Part shown: piece after piece, positions 16,400 through 27,038 of the stretch | Numbering within the stretch: the first letter of the stretch is position 1 | Layout of the letters: each line of letters opens with the position of its first letter | From: an uncultured Spirochaetaceae bacterium | GTDB lineage: Bacteria > Spirochaetota > Spirochaetia > Sphaerochaetales > Sphaerochaetaceae | Assembly (NCBI GenBank): GCA_944392975.1 | Contig: CALXYN010000014.1 | Span: 1-44,091 of the forward strand | DNA length: 44,091 nucleotides | Direction of reading: 5' to 3' | Program-made: the position numbers and the translations under genes | The notes under the pieces: model-generated | Told to the model about the DNA's origin: nothing | Database searches by the model: none | Seen by the model: the letters and a program-made list of their open reading frames with translations, nothing else

Positions 16400-17137
16400 A
16401 TGTTCGCTAAACGAGTCTTGGCAGCGCTTTTGCTGTTGCTCATCTGTACATTCTCGCTTATGGCTTATCAGCTGTCGCCGTTGAATGTTACATATGATCC
16501 AACCGGTGCAGGCAGTGCCAAGGTCTATACAATAGTTAATGACTCTGATGCGCCAATTGCCATTGAAGTGAGAGCTGAGCAGAGAATTGTTGATATTGAT
16601 GGCAATGAAGCCAATCAGGATGGATCGGCATATTTTTCTATTCAGCCAAACCGTATGATTATCCGTCCGGATTCTACACAGCTTGTACGCGTGCAGTACA
16701 GAGGTCCGCAAACAGTTACAAGAGAACTTTCTTTCAGGATAATCTCTGAGCAGATTCCTATGCCTCGTGGAGCGCAGGAAGAAGAATCTGGACAGATGAT
16801 ATCCTTCCTCTTTGTATATTCAACAAGTGCATATGTCCGCCCATCAAGAATTGTCGAGAGTGTTACATCATCTGTGAATACGACAAGTGATAATAAGCTT
16901 GAAATAATTCTTGAAAACACAGGCAGCGTTCATCAGATGCTTAATGATCTTTCCATCACTCTTACAGGGGACGATGGAAGCACCTATACACTTTCAGAAG
17001 AAGAACTGCAGCCCCTCTTAGGACAGAATCTTCTCACGGATTCAAAGCTGAGGACAATTATTACAAAACCAGAAGTGCTTTCAGCTGCTACAGAAATATC
17101 TGCAGCAATAAGTTACGACTATACCTATTCAACCTGA
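16400..17137 (+). CDS. PapD-like periplasmic pilus chaperone
   Basis: 245 residues with a Sec signal peptide (MFAKRVLAALLLLLICTFSLMA). The mature protein is two Ig-like domains. Chaperone features are the N-domain strands around VTYDPTGAGSAKVYTIVN, SDAPIAIEVRAEQR, a conserved Tyr-Arg-Gly-Pro after VRVQ, and the motif LSFRIISEQIPMP (family pattern R-x-I/L-x-E-Q-L/I-P). Such chaperones complete the Ig fold of pilus subunits by donor-strand complementation and hand them to the usher. The start is the ATG at 16400, six bases after GGGAGGAG. First gene of the operon; the usher gene begins 46 bases downstream. The family assignment is strong; partners are inferred from context. Confidence 0.82.
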   Translation: MFAKRVLAALLLLLICTFSLMAYQLSPLNVTYDPTGAGSAKVYTIVNDSDAPIAIEVRAEQRIVDIDGNEANQDGSAYFSIQPNRMIIRPDSTQLVRVQYRGPQTVTRELSFRIISEQIPMPRGAQEEESGQMISFLFVYSTSAYVRPSRIVESVTSSVNTTSDNKLEIILENTGSVHQMLNDLSITLTGDDGSTYTLSEEELQPLLGQNLLTDSKLRTIITKPEVLSAATEISAAISYDYTYST

Positions 17138-17183
17138 ATCGGCTGATTAAGAGATTTTATTTATCAGGAAAAAGGAGACGGGT

Positions 17184-20100
17184 ATGGTTCGGCGTTTCGC
17201 TATTATTATCTTGTCGTCTCTGACGGCGGGTTGTACAGCGTATTTGGCCCTGTTTTCAAAGAACATGGGCCAGGGTCTTTCTGTGATTCTTGGTTATGCC
17301 ATTCTCTTGATGTCGTCGGTACTTATGAATCTATGCATTCATGGAAGTACTGACAGCACGAAGAGAACGGCTCTGCTTGTCTTCTCACTTGGAGTTCTAG
17401 TCTTCTTCCTTGGCGGAATAATTTACATACTTTTTACCTCCGAACAGTATAAGTATGTCTCTCCATCCCCTCCTGTGGAAAACCACAGCACGGAAAGCAA
17501 TGCCTCTGATGTAGCGAAAGCTACTGAGAATGAAGGGACAGATATCACCCCCACAAACACAGAGCCCTCTGTTTCAGAGCATAGCCTAACTGAAAGTCAG
17601 GAGCCGTTCTCCTCTTCTTCCGATATAGAAGAATACCATACAGATCTGTCTGTTCACCAGCCTTCAGCGCCATCAGTATTCAATACCATCACAGCCATTG
17701 ATACTGAAAGCATAATAATTGAAATAGAAGATACGGAAAAACAGGAATCTATTGTTTTGCCTGATGCCGATGAGAGCACAGAGTCTGTGATGGCTGATGC
17801 AATTCCATCGGAAATTTCTGAAGGTATTCCTCGCGATATGACAGCACAGGAGCATTTCGATGATTTCTGGGCAAGCTTCTATGTCCAAGGTGAAGATGAG
17901 TTCCTGCTTGAAGATGGCATTTATTACATGACGCTTGTCATAAACGGGAATGAAATTGGCGATATAACTGTGAATATCCAGGATGGGAAACCCTCCCTTT
18001 ATGCCAATGAGATAAAAACCTATGTTCAGGATACGATTACTGATGAAGCCGAATTAAGAATATTCGGCGGTAATGAGATGTATCTGACCATCGATGACTT
18101 CAATTCCCTTGGTGTCGAGACAGAATTTGACAGCCTTGGATATACAGTATTGATGCAGTTTAGCTCGGAAGATATGCCAGTACAGATACTCAGTATCCGC
18201 ACTCCGATGAGCAGATTTCTCGAAAAACCGCCTATCACAGATTCAATCTGGCTTGATCCTGCTGTTTTTGTGCTTTCCTCAAGATATTCCTTTACCGGAA
18301 ACTTCACGCTCAATCCAATCTCTCGTTTTACCGATACCTTGAATTTCAATTTGTCTGCATATAACACCGGACGTCTCTTTGATGTGAACTTCGATTTCAA
18401 TTATTCGATGCGTTTTGGTCTTGATTACTTTGATTTCAATTTCGGTTCCTATGAATTTAATTATGATTTTGAAGATGCAATGATTCGTCTCAGCTGGGGA
18501 AATATCTCGACCCATCTCTTGTCTCCTGCTGGCACGAATCTTGGAATCAGATTTGAGAAGAACCTTTCATACGGTCCTGTGAACGCGAGAGGTAAAAGCC
18601 ATATAGAGCAGATAATAACAATAGAGAAAGAATCCGAAATCCAGGTAATAAATGAAGGACGTGAGATTTTCCACAAGACTCTTCAGCCTGGAAATTACCG
18701 CTTGCAGGATTTTGTTCTCTATACAGGTGCGAACAGAATAAAAATCATTGTCACGCCAATCGACGGAAGTCCATCTTATGAGAAGGATATAGAGCTTTCA
18801 TACTCAAGCTCATTGCTTGCACCTGGAGAGATTTATTTTGGTGGTGCAATTGCAACGGGACGTAGAATCGTCAATTCATCCTCTTCTCAGATTGCTGGAA
18901 GCATAAGGCTTCCTCTTTGGAATAACAGGAGCCTTGAATATGATTGGCGCAATGTTGTGCTTTCGGGAAATATAAGAATGGGACTTTCAAAGAGTCTAAC
19001 GCTCGATGCTTCTTTTGCCCTGCAGAATGAAGTAAGCGATGAAGCTGTGTTCAGGCCACAGGGAAAGCTTGCCATGGAATTTACCCATGCCAACATACTT
19101 GGTACCAGTAGATACAATCTCAATGTAACTGCGGAGACTGATGATTACGGGGATTTCCTTCTTCCAGGTATTTATGCGCATTTTGGACACCAGGTTTATA
19201 CTGGATTCTCTCCTGTAAGCTCCGTCAATCTTGGTCTTACATATGAGACAGATGTTGGCGATATGTTCTCCGATCACAGATTCTCTCTGTCTACGAGCTT
19301 TTCCGGTGGCTACGGAATATTCAGCTGGGGCCTTTCGCTTTCCGGCTCTCTCCGGACAGAAAGACCTAGTGACATAATATGGTCAACATCAGCATCCGCA
19401 TCATTCTCGTTCTCCAGAAATTTCTATCTCAGCGCAAGTGCTTCGATGGGTGGGTTATCTGGGGATATGCAGTATATTAACGGAAGAGTCGGTGCGACGT
19501 TCAGGTTCAGCCCGGCAACTGTCAATGTAACTGCTTCCACATATGAAACATCTGCAGAAGTAAGTATAAGGGAATCTGGGCATTCATTCTCCGCCGAAGT
19601 CTCTACCGATGATATCACTACATTTGATTCCTATTCCCTCGATGCTGATTACTCCTATTCAGGCGATTATGTTAATGTCGGTTTTGGCCTTAATGCCAGC
19701 GATATATTCGACAGTGTTACTGGTTCCGTCTCGCTTTCAACGTCATCGGTGTTTGCGGATGGCTATATGGCGTTCAGTTCATACCTTCCATCGAATTTCA
19801 TGTTCATCGTACAGGAAGGAGGGCTGGAGGGAAATACTCTATCTGCCGGTGTTGCAGGACAATCTGCTTCTGTTGAGATACCCACATGGTTCAATGTTGG
19901 CTTGTACAGAAACATACCGAGAAACCGTGGAACATCCCTTTCACTTTTCAGCATGGGGGAGGGTTCCTTTGGCAGTATGCAGGACTTCGATGTATATATC
20001 CCTGCTTCAAAGACTGCGGGTTATGTTCTCCATATTGAAGCTGATAGGGTTTACACGATTGCGGGCTATGTCAGCCTACCTGATGGAAGTGTATGGAGCA

Positions 20101-20459
20101 ATGGCTCTTCTCCTGTATATCGCATGACAGTGGATGGTAAGGATGCCAATCTCGAACAGGTTGATGAATACATCTTCTCCGATAACGATGGACTCTTCGT
20201 TCTCTCAGGTCTTGCGCCGGGAAGATATGCTTTTGACATTAATACTGAGGATGGAAAATGGTTCCTTTGCTCTTTTGTTGTTGAGGATGCTCCTGATCAT
20301 ATCGGAGAGATGCAGTTTATCGATACTGTTGTTGAAGATCAGAGCATAGAAGTATCAGAACCATACGGCGGTACATACAGCTTCACAGGCAATCGGTATT
20401 TCATGACAGGTGATGAGTTCTGGGCAATGCTCTATCCGGAGTTTGAGGTGGCTGTATGA
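17184..20459 (+). CDS. Giant usher-like outer-membrane protein with an N-terminal triple-helix membrane anchor
   Basis: 1091 residues; the start ATG follows AAGGAG by six bases. Residues 5-24, 32-52 and 63-84 are three hydrophobic helices. Residues about 87-215 are an acidic Ser/Thr/Glu linker. From about 220 the protein looks like an usher: an N-terminal domain (IYYMTLVINGNEIGDITVNI), a long array of barrel strands (RYSFTGNFTLNP, FDFNYSMRFGLDYFDFNFG), and the characteristic usher stretch IQVINEGREIFHKTLQPGNY with LQDFVLY. Residues about 955-1045 form a carboxypeptidase-regulatory-like Ig domain (YTIAGYVSLPDGS, GLFVLSGLAPGRYAF). An usher secretes and assembles subunits at the outer membrane. 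A multi-helix N terminus instead of a cleavable signal is unusual. Its stop overlaps the first subunit gene (ATGA). Confidence 0.75.
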   Translation: MVRRFAIIILSSLTAGCTAYLALFSKNMGQGLSVILGYAILLMSSVLMNLCIHGSTDSTKRTALLVFSLGVLVFFLGGIIYILFTSEQYKYVSPSPPVENHSTESNASDVAKATENEGTDITPTNTEPSVSEHSLTESQEPFSSSSDIEEYHTDLSVHQPSAPSVFNTITAIDTESIIIEIEDTEKQESIVLPDADESTESVMADAIPSEISEGIPRDMTAQEHFDDFWASFYVQGEDEFLLEDGIYYMTLVINGNEIGDITVNIQDGKPSLYANEIKTYVQDTITDEAELRIFGGNEMYLTIDDFNSLGVETEFDSLGYTVLMQFSSEDMPVQILSIRTPMSRFLEKPPITDSIWLDPAVFVLSSRYSFTGNFTLNPISRFTDTLNFNLSAYNTGRLFDVNFDFNYSMRFGLDYFDFNFGSYEFNYDFEDAMIRLSWGNISTHLLSPAGTNLGIRFEKNLSYGPVNARGKSHIEQIITIEKESEIQVINEGREIFHKTLQPGNYRLQDFVLYTGANRIKIIVTPIDGSPSYEKDIELSYSSSLLAPGEIYFGGAIATGRRIVNSSSSQIAGSIRLPLWNNRSLEYDWRNVVLSGNIRMGLSKSLTLDASFALQNEVSDEAVFRPQGKLAMEFTHANILGTSRYNLNVTAETDDYGDFLLPGIYAHFGHQVYTGFSPVSSVNLGLTYETDVGDMFSDHRFSLSTSFSGGYGIFSWGLSLSGSLRTERPSDIIWSTSASASFSFSRNFYLSASASMGGLSGDMQYINGRVGATFRFSPATVNVTASTYETSAEVSIRESGHSFSAEVSTDDITTFDSYSLDADYSYSGDYVNVGFGLNASDIFDSVTGSVSLSTSSVFADGYMAFSSYLPSNFMFIVQEGGLEGNTLSAGVAGQSASVEIPTWFNVGLYRNIPRNRGTSLSLFSMGEGSFGSMQDFDVYIPASKTAGYVLHIEADRVYTIAGYVSLPDGSVWSNGSSPVYRMTVDGKDANLEQVDEYIFSDNDGLFVLSGLAPGRYAFDINTEDGKWFLCSFVVEDAPDHIGEMQFIDTVVEDQSIEVSEPYGGTYSFTGNRYFMTGDEFWAMLYPEFEVAV

Positions 20460-21211
20460 AGAGACTGATTGTACTGTTACTGACAATTTGCTTCATGCTT
20501 TCCCCCGTTATTTCTGAAGCGGAGGAAACTCTTACGATAAAAGCCTACAAAACAGGTGGAAGTAGTACTGAGCCTTATCTTGTGTTATACGCCATAGACT
20601 CTATAACAGATGGTTCACAGCTTGAGAATATTGATTCTGTACATTCAGGTATTGACCTCGATGAATTCGTAGATAATGGTAGTGGAAATCTGCTCGGCAC
20701 ACTGCCAAGTGGTACATCTTCCGATGGACTTGCTTATGGAAACATTGTCTTCTCATACAGGGCGGAGGGAAATTTTGAAGGTAAGTTCGAAGTCACAACT
20801 GATATTGAAAGTTTTGAATATACAGATGATCTCGGAAAATCTTATTACATCGATGCCTATTATGAGCCGAAGAACAAGAGCATAGGTTTCAATACCGGTA
20901 ACTCTCCTGCAACTATAACGGAATCTGGAGTCACCGTCTCACTATCTTCCAATCCATCGCATCAAATCTCAAGGTCACGTGCTGTAACTCCCGGAAAACG
21001 TACAGAGGGGCCTGTTGGTGTAACATTCTTATCTTCCTGGGAGGTCTCGGATGGTTCTAATTCGACGGAATACGGCTTGGTAGATGAGACCTGGATTGTC
21101 AGAGAAGCTATGTATCTGATTCTGAAGGAAAGTGGAGAGACTGGTAGCTTTGAATCAGCTCCCGATGGCACGTATAGAGCTCTTGTGACAATGAAACTGG
21201 AGGTAAAATGA
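20456..21211 (+). CDS. Secreted putative pilus subunit 1
   Basis: 251 residues with a Sec signal peptide (MKRLIVLLLTICFMLSPVISEA). The mature part is beta-rich with many Gly, Ser, Asp and Tyr and no Cys. It ends in a strand with Tyr twelve residues from the end (GTYRALVTMKLEVK), the pattern shared by all nine small genes of the operon. An internal segment, SRSRAVTPGKRTEGPVGVTF, resembles the region before the last strands in spore-coat-U or fimbrial proteins. The ATG overlaps the usher stop. No homologue is recognised by eye; the subunit role is inferred from position and architecture. Confidence 0.6.
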   Translation: MKRLIVLLLTICFMLSPVISEAEETLTIKAYKTGGSSTEPYLVLYAIDSITDGSQLENIDSVHSGIDLDEFVDNGSGNLLGTLPSGTSSDGLAYGNIVFSYRAEGNFEGKFEVTTDIESFEYTDDLGKSYYIDAYYEPKNKSIGFNTGNSPATITESGVTVSLSSNPSHQISRSRAVTPGKRTEGPVGVTFLSSWEVSDGSNSTEYGLVDETWIVREAMYLILKESGETGSFESAPDGTYRALVTMKLEVK

Positions 21212-21921
21212 TGAAGAGGGGAATTTTATCTGTACTGCTGATTCTCTTGCTATCCTTTAGTCTGTTCAGCTCCGCTGATTCCATTCATGAATTCACAAGA
21301 TCTTTTACTATCCAGGCTGGTCGTAGCGAGTTCTCCACCTTGGTTATTACCCCAATATCCTCACAGACCGAGAACTATCGAATCGGTATGCCTTTCAATA
21401 TCGAGGATGTGCAGGTCCAGAGCACGAACCTGACAACAGGAAGAACCATTGCGGAGTGGTCATTAATCTCAAATACAGAGTTCGACATACTTATAGATGC
21501 AAAACCTATGAAATACATCGGCAGCGAAGGTTCTTCCCCTGATATCCCTATCCCATATATGCTCACGTTTGATTGTGACCTTTCCTTGGCTTCTGGAGGA
21601 CAGGAGAATATCAGTTTCTATTTTGATATGGGAGAAACTGGAGAGTCCGATAACTGTGGAATTTCCCATGGCGACACACAAATAGATGCTGCCGAAGCAC
21701 TTGGCGATAGTCCAACTCATCCTGGAGCTAAATCATTCGAGTTCGATATTCTTTCAGGTCTTTCCTCCGGTCTTGCAGAAGGAGGTGCTTTTCTTGGTTC
21801 TTTGAATGGAACCATAGACTTCAAATTCACAAGAATTACCTCTGAAGAATTAGCAAGTTCTGACTATCCTGCAGGTCAGTATGAAGCTGAGGTGATTGTC
21901 ACACTAAGGGAGGTTGAATAA
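21211..21921 (+). CDS. Secreted putative pilus subunit 2
   Basis: 236 residues. The start is taken as the ATG at 21211, seven bases after GGAGG (21199-21203); the ATG at 21208 is only four bases away. A signal peptide (MKRGILSVLLILLLSFSLFSSA) precedes a beta-rich body. A Cys pair is possible (one in FDCDLSL, one in NCGISHG). The C terminus GQYEAEVIVTLREVE carries the shared Tyr strand. The body includes PTHPGAKSFEFDILSGLSSGLAEGG-like Gly/Ser-rich turns. The coding region overlaps the neighbours by single bases on both sides, which favours coordinated translation. Confidence 0.6.
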   Translation: MKRGILSVLLILLLSFSLFSSADSIHEFTRSFTIQAGRSEFSTLVITPISSQTENYRIGMPFNIEDVQVQSTNLTTGRTIAEWSLISNTEFDILIDAKPMKYIGSEGSSPDIPIPYMLTFDCDLSLASGGQENISFYFDMGETGESDNCGISHGDTQIDAAEALGDSPTHPGAKSFEFDILSGLSSGLAEGGAFLGSLNGTIDFKFTRITSEELASSDYPAGQYEAEVIVTLREVE

Positions 21922-23501
21922 TGAAACGTATACTCTTGTTGATTCTATCATTAATCATTCTTTCAGCTTCCATTGTGGCTGATGAGCCGGAAGAAGGAGA
22001 GAGAGAAGAAATATTGAGGATTCTGAATGACATACAGTCTGGAGTAGTTGTTGAAATAATGCCAGATACAGGTGCCTATGGCGTTAATATGCGTGACTCT
22101 CGTTATCCTGAGCGAGATGCAGGAGCACTACTTAGTTATAGTGACATAGACATCGATACACTCAGCCCCAGCAGCGATGATTTTAGAAAAATATATGTTC
22201 CTGCCCAGATGGTTCTGCTTGCAGGTGTAGAGAATGTTCCAACGGAAAGCTCCCTGATAACTTATAGAAGAGAATATACGACAAATAGTCCGTATATAAG
22301 AGAAGATGTTCCTGCTTTTCGGATTATTTTCGAAGATGATCCTAGAAATGAAAGTGGAATGTCTTCAGTTGATATTGATATAAGAAGTTCGACCGACTAT
22401 ATGTATGTCTCACAGTCAAATCCGATTTATCAGAGGCCATACAAGCTCTATGCATCACCAAGATACAATTTCTCCGATGGCACTGTGGATAACCAGGATA
22501 AAACTCATCACTCTGGAGAAAGCATTGAATTCTACAACGATCATATCAGCGATAACATAGATTTTCACCCAGATAAAGCCGGTGGATATTCTCATATGAA
22601 TACATGGTTTGATCTCATCCTTGCTCTCCCATATGACTCTTACAATGAATCTGGTGTTCTTTGGGATAATAAAGAATTTCCGCTAGCAGATAGCAATGAC
22701 TACTCGTCTGTTGTAACAATCACAATAGTGTGGGATCAGAAATATAGAATTGAATATAATGAAGGGAATTGGGAGTCTGTTTGGTGGGCTGGTTGGCGTT
22801 ATTGCTACGATTCTCCTCGGTGGGTCGATTACACATCAAAGCTTGGTGTATCCGGCGTCCTGAGAGTTGAAAAGACGCTTTCAATCCCTTTCTCCGGTTT
22901 CTCCTCAACCATTGAATCTGGTCCGCTTGATGATACAGGAAGCCTTGTAATCACACCATATCCAGCAGCATCGAACTTAAGTCTTGATGCGGAGGATACA
23001 GGAGGAGATGCAATACCTGTTGCCGAAATTCAGTTCATCATGACATATGGATCTACAAATTATGTGCTGAACCCGTCCACATCGAATACCTGGATATTCT
23101 TATCAGCAAGTCCAGATCCATATGCAAGTAATCCAAATGGATTTATGCTGGTGCATGATGAAGCTGGAAGCATTCTCACTTCATATAACAGTACACCTTA
23201 TACTGTTACAGTTACAGGGATAACTGCTAATTCTGATGGAGCTGGTGGAGATGAGGTTGTCTTTGACGGCAAGGAAAAAGCTGCGGATTTCTATCTCAAC
23301 CAGACTGGTCCTGACAGCTATATCCATACAGAGCCTAATTACAATCTGGAGCTTCCGCATACACATGGCAAGTACTCACATTACAGCGAGTATGAAGGAA
23401 TTGTAAGCGTTCAGATACCGAGAACACCTGTTGCCGCAGATGGAATGCGAGCCGGACGTTACACAAGTGAAATTTATATCCATGTGATGACGGAGAAGTA
23501 G
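21921..23501 (+). CDS. Large secreted protein of the pilus operon, candidate tip adhesin
   Basis: 526 residues, more than twice the size of the other subunits. A signal peptide (MKRILLLILSLIILSASIVA) is followed by an acidic stretch (EPEEGEREEI) and a long domain rich in Tyr, Ser, Asp and Asn. A Trp-rich patch lies near residues 285-300 (NWESVWWAGWRYCYDSPRW), typical of carbohydrate-facing surfaces. The last part has Ig-like strands and ends GRYTSEIYIHVMTEK, the shared terminal strand. In chaperone-usher systems, two-domain subunits with a C-terminal pilin domain are tip adhesins; that role is inferred. The start overlaps the previous stop by one base (TAATG), with GGGAGG seven bases upstream. 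Confidence 0.6.
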   Translation: MKRILLLILSLIILSASIVADEPEEGEREEILRILNDIQSGVVVEIMPDTGAYGVNMRDSRYPERDAGALLSYSDIDIDTLSPSSDDFRKIYVPAQMVLLAGVENVPTESSLITYRREYTTNSPYIREDVPAFRIIFEDDPRNESGMSSVDIDIRSSTDYMYVSQSNPIYQRPYKLYASPRYNFSDGTVDNQDKTHHSGESIEFYNDHISDNIDFHPDKAGGYSHMNTWFDLILALPYDSYNESGVLWDNKEFPLADSNDYSSVVTITIVWDQKYRIEYNEGNWESVWWAGWRYCYDSPRWVDYTSKLGVSGVLRVEKTLSIPFSGFSSTIESGPLDDTGSLVITPYPAASNLSLDAEDTGGDAIPVAEIQFIMTYGSTNYVLNPSTSNTWIFLSASPDPYASNPNGFMLVHDEAGSILTSYNSTPYTVTVTGITANSDGAGGDEVVFDGKEKAADFYLNQTGPDSYIHTEPNYNLELPHTHGKYSHYSEYEGIVSVQIPRTPVAADGMRAGRYTSEIYIHVMTEK

Positions 23502-23510
23502 GAGGAAGTG

Positions 23511-23975
23511 ATGATATCTAAGAAAGCATTATTACTGATTCTTATTCTTCTGCCAGTTCAGTTATTCTCCTCTGATACTTCATTCAAGTCATTCAGGGAG
23601 CTTCCTGAATCATACTCCTTTGGTGTTGAAGGAGGAGATGTCTTGGTTCTTTCCGAGAATGAAGAAGGGGTAGCATATGGTGGAGTCGATTTGCATTACC
23701 AGGCTGTAAATCCTGGAGATGTGGAGTTATATGTCAATTCATTCCCTATTAAAAATGCCTCGGATGATGACATAGATTACATCTATGCAATCAACAATAC
23801 GACTGGTTCCTTGATTTTCGGAACGACAGACGACGATGAAATGCTGATTCACCGCTACACTCCAGGGAGCCTCTCTGAAAGCGGGGAGATGACGATGCGA
23901 GTAAAAACTCTCGATAGTACCACAAGCGATGCAAGCTTGCCAGGTTACATGGTCCTGAAAGTGAGGAGCTTATGA
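23511..23975 (+). CDS. Secreted putative pilus subunit 4 (small)
   Basis: 154 residues, the shortest of the set. The ATG at 23511 lies five bases after GGAGG (23501-23505), which overlaps the previous stop codon. The signal peptide is MISKKALLLILILLPVQLFS. The mature protein is acidic with strands such as YGGVDLHYQAVNPGDVELYV and ends PGYMVLKVRSL, with Tyr nine residues from the end. Its small size would suit an adaptor or terminator subunit, but that is speculation. The stop overlaps the next ATG (ATGA). Confidence 0.58.
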   Translation: MISKKALLLILILLPVQLFSSDTSFKSFRELPESYSFGVEGGDVLVLSENEEGVAYGGVDLHYQAVNPGDVELYVNSFPIKNASDDDIDYIYAINNTTGSLIFGTTDDDEMLIHRYTPGSLSESGEMTMRVKTLDSTTSDASLPGYMVLKVRSL

Positions 23976-24547
23976 GAAAATTTCTTATCTTCATGATTCT
24001 CCTGATCTCCGTTTTTTCACTTTCCGCCGCCAGTAGCAGTCCTTTAGCCTTGGGCGCTGAATACGAAGGAGAGACGATTGAATCTGGGGCGAATGTAGCA
24101 GCGACTAATATAACGTTGGATTTATCAGGGCTTTTCCTTGCAAATATCTGGTTTGAATCTGAAGCGGAGACACCAATCCAGAATGGCGAAATCCGCCTTA
24201 TTTCTTCTACAGATGGAACTGCAATTGGGTATGTGAATCTATCATGGCTCGTCATCTCATCCAGCCCAATAACCCTCATTTTTTCTGCAGATGGAAAACT
24301 CGGAAAACCAGAAGGAATAGGAGGGGAAATAAACTGGGCTCTGTATAGGACTGAAAACAGCGAGGAGAAGCTGGTATTTGATACAGCGGGGACTATGTCC
24401 TCCGAGGAAATAGAAATCGGAATAGAAGAAGGGGAAGGTAAATCGAGTGGTAACATCCCATTGGTTATCAGGACAGCGCCTTATTCTTCTGCATCTTACG
24501 ATTATGATTACAGTGCAATTCTGAAGCTCAATGTAAGAGCTGATTGA
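23972..24547 (+). CDS. Secreted putative pilus subunit 5
   Basis: 191 residues with a signal peptide (MRKFLIFMILLISVFSLSAA). The body has alternating strands (ITLDLSGLFLANIWFESEAE, GYVNLSWLVISSSPITLIF) and a Glu/Gly-rich turn (EEIEIGIEEGEGKSSGN), and ends DYDYSAILKLNVRAD with Tyr twelve residues from the end. It shares with subunits 6 and 7 the layout of a hydrophobic central strand, a xxWxIxR/K-type stretch (INWALYRTENS here) and the terminal Tyr strand, which suggests these genes arose by duplication. AGGAG lies three bases before the start, which overlaps the upstream stop. Confidence 0.6.
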   Translation: MRKFLIFMILLISVFSLSAASSSPLALGAEYEGETIESGANVAATNITLDLSGLFLANIWFESEAETPIQNGEIRLISSTDGTAIGYVNLSWLVISSSPITLIFSADGKLGKPEGIGGEINWALYRTENSEEKLVFDTAGTMSSEEIEIGIEEGEGKSSGNIPLVIRTAPYSSASYDYDYSAILKLNVRAD

Positions 24548-24568: not shown

Positions 24569-25153
24569 ATGAAAAAAATTTTATTTGTTCTCATTATGCT
24601 GCTGGCAGTAGGTATGCTCTCAGCAGCTACGTCGGTTACTTTGGATGGCTCTACCAGGAATGGTGAAGCAACTCTTAAAGTTGTTCTTCCACTCAAATCT
24701 GGAGAATTCGAGTACATTACTGTAGGGTTTACAGATTCTGAAGTAGATACAGCAGAAACAGGAGCGTTTGCTGTTGTTACACCGTATGCATCAGGAGAAG
24801 TAAAACTTGATTCTGATGGAGATAACACGGCTTCTATTAAAAGTAATCTTTATGCTTACTGGCAGATTCGTACAAACAGTACTGTGACAGTTACTCTTTC
24901 AAAAGATAAAGCTCTTACAGGCGAAAGCGTTAGCGATACAATCGACTGGAAGATTGTTGCCGATAGTAAAACTCAGGATATGAACGACTATGATACAACA
25001 AATGCAATTACTCTTGTAAATGCTTGGAAGGCAGCGGGAGGTTCAACAATCAATCAGGGAAGCGCTCAGATTACCATCGATACAGAGGATTATTCTGGTA
25101 AACCGACTGATGACTACTCTGCAAATCTTGTACTTAATGTAGCAGCGGTTTGA
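24569..25153 (+). CDS. Secreted putative major pilus subunit (subunit 6)
   Basis: 194 residues. The ATG at 24569 follows AAGGAG by eight bases and, unlike most subunits here, the gene stands free with short spacers on both sides. Signal peptide MKKILFVLIMLLAVGMLSAA. The mature protein is rich in Thr, Ala, Ser and Val, the usual composition of major pilins, with strands TSVTLDGSTRNGEATLKVVL, YAYWQIRTNSTVTVTLSKD and SDTIDWKIVADSK, and ends DDYSANLVLNVAAV. The hairpin at 25166-25194 immediately downstream could stabilise its mRNA or reduce downstream expression. Together these points make it the best candidate for the shaft protein; no direct proof. Confidence 0.62.
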   Translation: MKKILFVLIMLLAVGMLSAATSVTLDGSTRNGEATLKVVLPLKSGEFEYITVGFTDSEVDTAETGAFAVVTPYASGEVKLDSDGDNTASIKSNLYAYWQIRTNSTVTVTLSKDKALTGESVSDTIDWKIVADSKTQDMNDYDTTNAITLVNAWKAAGGSTINQGSAQITIDTEDYSGKPTDDYSANLVLNVAAV

Positions 25154-25194: not shown

Positions 25195-25214
25195 AATTTA
25201 CCTTGGGGTGAATG

Positions 25215-25844
25215 ATGAAGAGAATTGCGATTTTGATGATTATTCTATTAATTACAGGTTTTTGCTTTGCATCTGGGACGGAAACATCTGTGACGATTCA
25301 GTATGATGCAGATTCTCCGTTCGAAAGTGCGGAAGTATCTGCTGTCCTGTCTTTGAAGCCTTCTTCATCATTCAGCTATAAGGTTGGGTTCACAACATCA
25401 GGATCCTCTTATAATTCACCTGTCGCGACAATTCCTTTGACGCCTGCAATAGATACAGAGCAGAGTACATTTACTTTTGAACCTCTTACGGAGATTTATG
25501 TTTATTGGGATATATTCGGAACAGATCCATTTCGTCTTATGCTTGGTGCAACAGGACCTCTGACGACGGAGAACAGCGAGAGTTTTATAGGATGGAAAAT
25601 CAGTAGGCTGGATGGAGAGGGAACGACAATAACCTGGGATTCGATTCCGGAAGATTGGGAAAGTGCTGTTGATTCAAAGACGATTGAAATAATGCGATAT
25701 ACCTATTCCGGCCGGGGGCTTCCCGTGGAACAGAATAACAGACAGCTGAGGATTGAGCCTACTCTGCCGTCAAATAAAATTTCGGGTTATACCGCTACGA
25801 CATATAATGCATATCTTGTGCTGTCCTTGGAGACGATAGAATGA
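25215..25844 (+). CDS. Secreted putative pilus subunit 7
   Basis: 209 residues. The second of two adjacent ATGs (25215) is chosen because GGGG/GGTGA sits six bases upstream. Signal peptide MKRIAILMIILLITGFCFAS. Strands such as TSVTIQYDADSPFESAEVSA, IYVYWDIFGTDPFRLMLGAT and SFIGWKISRLDGE parallel subunit 6 in order and spacing; the terminal strand is TTYNAYLVLSLETIE. It is probably a paralogue of subunit 6. It follows the intercistronic hairpin, so it should be made in smaller amounts. The stop overlaps the next start (ATGA). Confidence 0.6.
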   Translation: MKRIAILMIILLITGFCFASGTETSVTIQYDADSPFESAEVSAVLSLKPSSSFSYKVGFTTSGSSYNSPVATIPLTPAIDTEQSTFTFEPLTEIYVYWDIFGTDPFRLMLGATGPLTTENSESFIGWKISRLDGEGTTITWDSIPEDWESAVDSKTIEIMRYTYSGRGLPVEQNNRQLRIEPTLPSNKISGYTATTYNAYLVLSLETIE

Positions 25845-26386
25845 TTAGAAAGGTTTTTATTGTAATCCTGTTTTTTGTTTCCATTTCATCATCTTTTGCT
25901 GTGCAGATTGACCCGATTTCCATGGACGTCTCGTTTACATCTGGTCTTGTCGCGAATTTTGGGTTTTCCACGTATCCTCCAGATTCTGCGATTAAACCTG
26001 AGTCATCTGTCCCTTCTGTGATTGAATTCACTTACAATGATAGAACGGGTAACTTCGAGACTCCGACATATTATATCTATTACCAGGTTTTCACTCCGGT
26101 TAATGCGCCTTTGAAGGTTAGTGTTGTTGCTACTGGGCTTAGAAACATTAATGACAGTAATGATATTCTTGTGTGGAATGACCGCGAGGGGAATATTAAG
26201 TGTATCGAAAATCCCGATGCTTTTGATAACCCTAGTCCACATAAAACACCAATCGAATCCAATCTCACTATCGACAGGGAACCTGCAAATTACGACTCCA
26301 AGGCATTTAAGCTTGAAGTCAATGCCAGTGAAGTGAATTACGATGCCGCATACCGCGGTCAGATTACAGTTTATATCGAGTCATGA
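25841..26386 (+). CDS. Secreted putative pilus subunit 8
   Basis: 181 residues with a signal peptide (MIRKVFIVILFFVSISSSFA). The mature part begins VQIDPISMDVSFTSG and contains YYIYYQVFTPVNAPLKVSVV, comparable to the central YWxIxG strands of subunits 6 and 7. One Cys (IKCIEN). The C terminus AAYRGQITVYIES has Tyr eleven residues from the end. The ATG overlaps the previous stop. No external family is recognised. Confidence 0.58.
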   Translation: MIRKVFIVILFFVSISSSFAVQIDPISMDVSFTSGLVANFGFSTYPPDSAIKPESSVPSVIEFTYNDRTGNFETPTYYIYYQVFTPVNAPLKVSVVATGLRNINDSNDILVWNDREGNIKCIENPDAFDNPSPHKTPIESNLTIDREPANYDSKAFKLEVNASEVNYDAAYRGQITVYIES

Positions 26387-26387
26387 T

Positions 26388-27038
26388 ATGAAAAGATGCC
26401 TTTTTATTCTGCTATGTTTGCTATCAGTATTTGCTATCAACGCGGTAGAGACTCTGCCTGTGCCTGATGAAATTAAATTTGAAATGTATTTCAGGAAAGA
26501 GAATCAGCCGACATTCTGCTTTGTTGAAGAGGAGCCTTCAACAATTCCTGTAGAAGGAACAATTGCTGATATCTCTCAGATTGCTTTTCCTACAGTATAT
26601 TCTCAGGCAGATTCTGATTATAGTTCCGATAAGGTAGCAGCGATTGCATTGTATTGGGATGTATATGGAACATCTCTGACGATTGATCTCATGTTCTCCG
26701 GCTCCCAATCAACCGATACGGGGACTTGTTATATGCTTTCAAATACACAGGGAGGAAATGGATACAACTATAATGTTGAGATTACGTCGAAGCATGAAAG
26801 CATTGATCAGGAAAGAATTAGTTTATTTACGGAGAGCGAGATGAGTTCTGAATCATTTCATTCCCCATTGGATGGGACTTCTCGTAGTTTGAGCCTTATC
26901 TCTAATGAGAGCATCCTTGATGGTAGAGCTTCCGGTAGCGTGACTCTTGATATGACACTACCATTTCCAACTGAGACAGGCTTTGCGATGGGGCAGTACA
27001 CCGGAACGATAACCGCGAGTATTATTGTGGAAGACTAA
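26388..27038 (+). CDS. Secreted putative pilus subunit 9 (last gene of operon)
   Basis: 216 residues. The ATG at 26388 lies one base after the previous stop and has no clear ribosome binding site, so translation is probably coupled; the upstream in-frame ATG at 26343 would bury the signal peptide. Signal peptide MKRCLFILLCLLSVFAINA. The body includes AAIALYWDVYGTSLTIDLMFSG, again the YWDxxGT strand of subunit 7, and two Cys residues (FCFVEE and TCYMLS). The terminal strand is GQYTGTITASIIVED. The last codons overlap by four bases with the convergent lipoprotein gene, leaving no space for a terminator between them. Confidence 0.58.
   Translation: MKRCLFILLCLLSVFAINAVETLPVPDEIKFEMYFRKENQPTFCFVEEEPSTIPVEGTIADISQIAFPTVYSQADSDYSSDKVAAIALYWDVYGTSLTIDLMFSGSQSTDTGTCYMLSNTQGGNGYNYNVEITSKHESIDQERISLFTESEMSSESFHSPLDGTSRSLSLISNESILDGRASGSVTLDMTLPFPTETGFAMGQYTGTITASIIVED

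Follow-up and report, generated by a model that had tools for sequence, protein, structure and literature searches.

An uncultured Spirochaetaceae bacterium encodes the usher of a putative, divergent chaperone-usher pilus as what is probably one envelope-spanning chain that ties the outer to the inner membrane, a reading to which a probability of roughly two in three (0.68) is assigned. The usher fold, the conserved N-terminal helices, the presence of a linker in every homologue, the restriction of this architecture to one family, and the wall losses in that family are supported by sequence, fold, and comparative computation. The window, i.e., the whole stretch of DNA analyzed, comprises 44,091 nt of contig CALXYN010000014.1, and all coordinates are window positions.

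The usher gene and its locus

The usher gene encodes three transmembrane (TM) helices, a linker, and a complete set of usher domains:

17172..17177, + strand: AAGGAG ribosome-binding site, 6 bases before the usher ATG at 17184 (sequence)
17184..20459, + strand: usher gene with putative inner-membrane anchor, 1091 aa, stop included in the coordinates (ORF; AlphaFold2 model; fold match to FimD/PapC)
17187..17255, + strand: TM helix 1, residues 2-24; N-terminus with 2 K/R, predicted to be cytoplasmic by the positive-inside rule (hydropathy, AlphaFold2)
17271..17339, + strand: TM helix 2, residues 30-52 (hydropathy, AlphaFold2)
17352..17435, + strand: TM helix 3, residues 57-84 (hydropathy, AlphaFold2)
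17436..17846, + strand: disordered acidic Ser/Thr/Glu linker, residues 85-221, with one PSAPSVF stretch resembling the family linker motif (pLDDT, composition, motif enrichment)
17847..18203, + strand: conserved DDFWASFYVQGED tail followed by the N-terminal domain of the usher, residues 222-340 (alignment, pattern, AlphaFold2)
18261..19763, + strand: usher beta-barrel with inserted plug (plug ~460-545), residues ~360-860 (VIA alignment to PapC/FimD pores, model residues 364-858)
19791..20456, + strand: usher C-terminal domains, residues ~870-1091 (AlphaFold2 strands; VIA alignment to FimD/PapC up to residue 1051-1063)

An earlier, sequence-only reading had placed three hydrophobic helices at about residues 5-24, 32-52, and 63-84, followed by a long acidic Glu/Ser/Thr-rich stretch ahead of an usher N-domain. 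A full-length AlphaFold2 model, built from an alignment of 41 homologues (mean pLDDT 76.6), accommodates three helices, a disordered linker, and an usher fold in one chain; its helices at 2-24, 30-52, and 57-84, which are also found as strong helices by hydropathy, agree with the earlier limits, and the acidic stretch is indeed disordered over ~137 residues. Disorder extends over residues 83-219 (block pLDDT ~23-42), with order from ~221 on. By composition, the linker of 135-137 residues contains 30 D+E, 4 K+R, 36 S+T, 11 P, and no Cys. At its end, just before the N-domain, resides the tail motif DDFWASFYxxGED, a pattern matching 55/63 homologues from the family.

The designation of the core as an usher, also made from the letters alone, called for verification in view of the negative PF00577 result: the usher models of Pfam and NCBIfam do not significantly match the window protein, and a PF00577 search of the genome it comes from was likewise negative. 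This miss is read as sequence divergence and not as a test of fold. The designation was borne out at the level of structure. With the usher model as query, FimD and PapC structures take all of the top 19 places among Foldseek matches in the PDB (best E 1.5e-28), and in VIA-align 15 usher chains lead (Z 18.5-21.7, the best over 632 residues), the next non-usher following at Z 15.5. Model residues 231-1063 align to FimD/PapC with N-domain, plugged barrel, and C-terminal domains all present. A profile of the whole protein run against PDB sequences was rejected, its only matches being low-complexity ones from helices and linker.

The usher is flanked by genes for a chaperone and a series of secreted proteins:

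16400..17137, + strand: cognate periplasmic chaperone of the PapD type; its signal peptide, ...TFSLMA/YQL, is an ordinary one (PapD_N 33.4 bits, cut-off 23; signal peptide)
20456..21211, + strand: secreted subunit-like protein 1 with pilin-like C-terminal strand (ORF, C-terminal strand)
21208..21921, + strand: secreted subunit-like protein 2, homologues of which adjoin ushers in many relatives; weak EcpA match (ORF, C-terminal strand)
21921..23501, + strand: large secreted protein, 526 aa, possibly a tip adhesin (ORF, secretion/C-terminal scan)
23508..23975, + strand: secreted protein, 155 aa (ORF, secretion/C-terminal scan)
23972..24547, + strand: secreted subunit-like protein with pilin-like C-terminal strand (ORF, C-terminal strand)
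24569..25153, + strand: pilin-like subunit, modelled fold nearest CsuA/B, CfaB, CfaE, and FimG, weakly (C-terminal strand, model, fold matches)
25212..25844, + strand: pilin-like subunit (C-terminal strand)
25841..26386, + strand: pilin-like subunit (C-terminal strand)
26388..27038, + strand: pilin-like subunit (C-terminal strand)

As in pilus subunits, a Y-x-[AGS]-x-hydrophobic strand ends 8/9 small secreted proteins downstream of the usher; the one subunit that was modelled has pilus subunits as its top matches, although these are weak (E >= 0.0045, Z <= 7.0). A homologue of the chaperone was found in 80 examined loci. Given the usher fold, the PapD-type chaperone, and the pilin-like proteins, the locus is read as a divergent chaperone-usher pilus operon, which presumably gives rise to a pilus.

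Distribution of the N-terminal extension

Homologues were sought by searching related genomes with the window protein and by running a profile over 394 Spirochaetia. Usher homologues occur in 46/100 related genomes, and a search of a genome-contig collection for related loci yielded one relative only. The family to which the window belongs (f1) provided a homologue set of 63 ushers with a readable N-terminus, all of which carry an N-terminal hydrophobic anchor and, after it, a 92- to 424-residue linker; this linker is net negative in every case, and no usher of this set lacks the extension. Family linkers are enriched in a [VI]P[SA]xP-like motif (90 seen versus 14.3 expected after shuffling). 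The number of helices is three, five, or seven in the genus of the window (g1) and one in the other genera of the family, two transferred cases excepted. Among the 21 ushers examined from other Spirochaetia families, a few of which have ambiguous starts, none bears an extension of TM helices plus acidic linker; most possess a signal peptide, ending for example in AFA/Q or LFA/Q, with the usher domain close behind, and two (L083 and L085) contain an extra non-acidic domain of ~160 residues.

Phylogenetic analysis of the usher cores separates the signal-peptide group from the rest (support 100), with the one-helix forms basal in the family and the forms with three, five, or seven helices constituting one clade (support 100). 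Nested inside this genus g1 clade are three-helix ushers of two genomes of genus g12 (G058:C10 and G305:C6), the first of which also has a one-helix usher of its own. This nesting, together with the retained one-helix usher, indicates transfer of the gene along with its anchor, and the g12 three-helix ushers were thus probably acquired horizontally.

Two proteins deviate from the general pattern. L014 from genome G028, with an ambiguous start, is the only usher homologue with two predicted helices, or with a single signal-like helix if an inner ATG is used. L046 (G036:C5), a 316 aa protein encoded near a feoB-like gene, represents a stand-alone three-helix module with a VPSAP-type linker and no usher.

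Lasting anchor or cleaved leader

The first helix of the window usher looks unlike a normal cleaved signal: no signal-peptidase-like site was found after it. First helices of the family ushers contain uncharged runs of mostly 19-26 residues. The window usher does not start with a single cleaved signal peptide followed by a mature chain beginning at the tail and, because of its three helices and 137-residue linker, is not filed as a canonical, wholly outer-membrane usher. Positive charges reside on the N-terminus and loop 2 of the helix module, which predicts a periplasmic linker. The helix number is odd in 60/63 homologues under one rule, with up to 15/63 appearing even under stricter rules, which makes parity soft evidence for an anchor. 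Lipoprotein anchoring of the one-helix ushers was considered and rejected since the residue before the post-helix cysteines inspected is T, I, or Q, unlike in a lipobox. Pfam matches of the membrane module (HlyIII, ZIP, DUF4153, and others) were likewise rejected, all being below cut-off and inconsistent.

Conservation is the strongest point for an anchor over a leader. Relative to four near relatives (L003-L005/L013), the three-helix module is 71-78% identical and the usher barrel region 45-52%; relative to eight other homologues, the values are 46-51% and 41-64%, and linker identity in the same comparisons is only 12-38%. The chaperone displays the opposite pattern, its signal peptide being 36-67% identical and its mature part 70-85%. 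The membrane module is therefore under selection as a lasting domain. These numbers bear directly on the possibility that the helices serve as an export signal only, a protease cutting the exposed linker and thereby freeing a normal outer-membrane usher. In favour of this possibility, a disordered linker is an easy protease target, ordinary ushers have no inner-membrane attachment, and L014 has a signal-like helix. Yet three to seven helices are unnecessary for export, for which the chaperone and BamA of the same genome use ordinary signal peptides; the module is conserved as much as the usher or more, unlike the signal peptide of the chaperone, and the divergent linkers contain no common cut site noticeable by eye. 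Removal of the helices during or after export is therefore unlikely. The sequence-only reading had proposed either a tether across the periplasm or cleavage after sensing or export; the tether is the half best supported, by conserved helices, long linkers, and a fitting topology, while no support was found for the cleavage half.

The constraint on TM1-3 exceeds the needs of an inert anchor, and the helix number rose from one to three, five, and seven within one clade, which suggests that the membrane part may bind a partner as well. In its strong form, this idea makes the module a sensor or docking domain for Sec, a protease, or a regulator, which reports on pilus assembly or loads complexes near Sec, with the tether being secondary; the stand-alone three-helix-plus-linker gene in G036 fits such a role. 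Against it, the module has no cytoplasmic domain and loops of only a few residues and matches no named family above cut-off, no partner membrane gene was seen in the window's cluster, and a single helix suffices in the rest of the family. A primary sensing or docking function is accordingly rated as quite unlikely.

A long linker would let the tethered barrel reach the outer membrane. The shortest family linker, 92 residues, spans ~31 nm when extended, and the E. coli periplasm measures 24 +/- 5 nm (PMC13067283), so every family linker is long enough to cross an E. coli-like periplasm. Since the N-domain of an usher faces the periplasm, the extension can reach the inner membrane without topological conflict. 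The length is meaningful in view of the failure, in E. coli, of a barrel with a direct inner-membrane attachment: LamB(A23D), tethered by its uncleaved signal, is toxic, stays at the inner membrane, and fails to assemble into the outer membrane (PMC4817254). The same mutant could be taken to indicate that the whole window protein resides in the inner membrane or periplasm and has no role as an outer-membrane pore (PMC4817254). This is very improbable given that the usher domains are intact, plug and C-terminal part included, that a chaperone and pilin-like subunits are encoded next door, that the linkers are invariably long, and that such a pore would do harm in the inner membrane. Finally, a gene-model or assembly artefact, i.e., a true start further downstream or a fusion of two genes, could be imagined in a draft genome of 109 contigs but is already refuted, with a negligible residual chance, because homologues in dozens of independent assemblies, single-contig genomes among them, have the identical architecture, anchor and linker occurring in all 63 family homologues, and because the ATG at 17184 has a good Shine-Dalgarno sequence and the next start codons have none as good.

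In the envelope-spanning model, the chain would enter via Sec and its three helices would remain in the inner membrane, with the N-terminus cytoplasmic and the C-terminal side periplasmic. The acidic 137-residue linker would then span the periplasm up to the usher tail, its length permitting the tethered barrel still to reach the outer membrane and to be inserted there. In FimD, residues 1-24 recruit chaperone-subunit complexes (PMC11459180); by homology, the tail would receive such complexes where the tether ends, the barrel would export the pili, and the anchor would connect the inner membrane and the cell body with the pilus base and, through it, the outer membrane. Non-cleavage of the helices, the outer-membrane location of the barrel, and the load-bearing role of the tether are inferred. 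The model is weakened by the exceptional L014, by the threshold dependence of helix parity, by the failure of the linkerless LamB(A23D) in E. coli, and by the prospect of an unusual protease removing the helices.

Envelope setting and known systems

The family of the window (f1), a group of round gut bacteria related to the spirochaetes, is probably the Sphaerochaetaceae, in line with the absence of flagellin from 49/49 family genomes searched. Cultured Sphaerochaetaceae are spherical and lack penicillin-binding proteins (PBP) 1a, 2, and C (PMC7738495). OmpA-type wall-binding domains were detected in none of 29 family genomes, whereas four outgroup genomes have 5-8 apiece; the usual tether between outer membrane and wall has therefore been lost in the lineage. 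None of 14 genomes of genus g1 has a PBP transpeptidase domain, and Mur_ligase_M gives 0-2 weak matches (probably FolC) in this genus versus 5-6 in walled relatives, so genus g1 has apparently lost peptidoglycan synthesis. L,D-transpeptidase proved uninformative as a wall marker, being absent from all 27 genomes tested, outgroup included. Genera g7, g8, g50, and g51 present a wall-gene picture like that of g1. Conserved one-helix proteins with LysM repeats (L121, L122, L123, L124, and L127; MGR[YD]SYDDM...) occur mostly in a genus apparently without a wall, and their M23-like domain seems to lack the catalytic histidines.

Because the family has no OmpA domains and the genus also no penicillin-binding proteins, the tether may replace wall anchoring. 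Anchor type and wall loss do not coincide throughout: genus g8 lacks PBP but has one helix, and two g12 genomes with PBP have three helices (by transfer), so the correlation is based on very few independent events. It is thus proposed tentatively, at somewhat less than an even chance, that a wall-poor, OmpA-less diderm family replaced wall-mediated anchoring by single-chain export-pore bridges (the usher and, in one genus, TpsB); in the genus that apparently lacks peptidoglycan synthesis, these bridges could take up load from the envelope or from adhesion.

The TpsB case is found in genome G055 of the same family, where two ShlB/FhaC-type pores (L150:535-2928 and L125) carry an uncut-looking N-terminal helix and linkers of ~150 and ~280 residues ahead of the POTRA domain; the L150 linker is built of KAEVLETDKQQYEI-type repeats. 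In addition, a 485 aa frame of genus g1 (L120, genome G042) combines one helix, an acidic linker, and a small C-terminal barrel, its relatives mostly having signal peptides. L120 also holds a domain of which other g1 proteins contain tandem copies. General anchoring of outer-membrane proteins in the genus was rejected, as BamA and most L120 relatives have signal peptides; the helix-linker-barrel design appears to be kept for the usher, the TpsB pores of G055, and L120. The BamA frames of genomes G001 (L185) and G014 (L190) are 1270 and 1224 aa long, ~380 more than their relatives, possibly owing to extra POTRA domains, and the same two genomes have the seven-helix ushers.

In the literature searched, a limited library, no report of an inner-membrane-anchored usher was found; the usher family itself is known, but ushers or other outer-membrane barrels keeping inner-membrane helices family-wide were not encountered there. 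A recent review describes all outer-membrane barrel proteins as exported by signal peptide (PMC13067283). If the present reading holds, a pilus pore keeps its anchor in every homologue examined, implying that a barrel can assemble while tethered, given a long linker. It would offer a one-protein system for measuring intermembrane tethering and one answer to how diderms without wall tethers hold their membranes together and bear the pulling force on adhesive pili.

With FimD and PapC, the window usher shares the N-domain, plugged barrel, and C-terminal domains as well as a neighbouring PapD-type chaperone and pilin-like subunits. Canonical ushers, in contrast, have a cleaved signal peptide and neither membrane helices nor linker, whereas the window usher features three helices and 137 linker residues. 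TonB-type periplasm-spanning proteins likewise combine an inner-membrane helix with a proline-rich or acidic periplasmic linker, but TonB only contacts outer-membrane proteins while in the window usher the barrel belongs to the same chain. As to the pilus, the one subunit modelled is nearest, weakly, to CsuA/B, CfaB, and CfaE of the archaic and alternative pili (Csu, CFA/I), the archaic ones having been reported from Proteobacteria, Cyanobacteria, and Deinococcus-Thermus (PMC4654587). In LamB(A23D), an uncut N-terminal helix keeps a barrel attached to the inner membrane, as proposed for the usher; this toxic, unassembled mutant has no linker, in contrast to the family ushers with linkers of at least 92 residues (PMC4817254). 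VirB10 of type IV secretion, finally, possesses an N-terminal inner-membrane helix and a C-terminal outer-membrane channel part in a single chain, as proposed here, but assembles as a 14-mer whose outer-membrane cap is helical, within an ATP-driven machine, and no homology is claimed (PMC4182333). The fold of the window protein is that of an usher, and type IV secretion genes were not recognized among the ORFs of the window. Among known single chains residing in both membranes, VirB10, with its different fold, comes closest.
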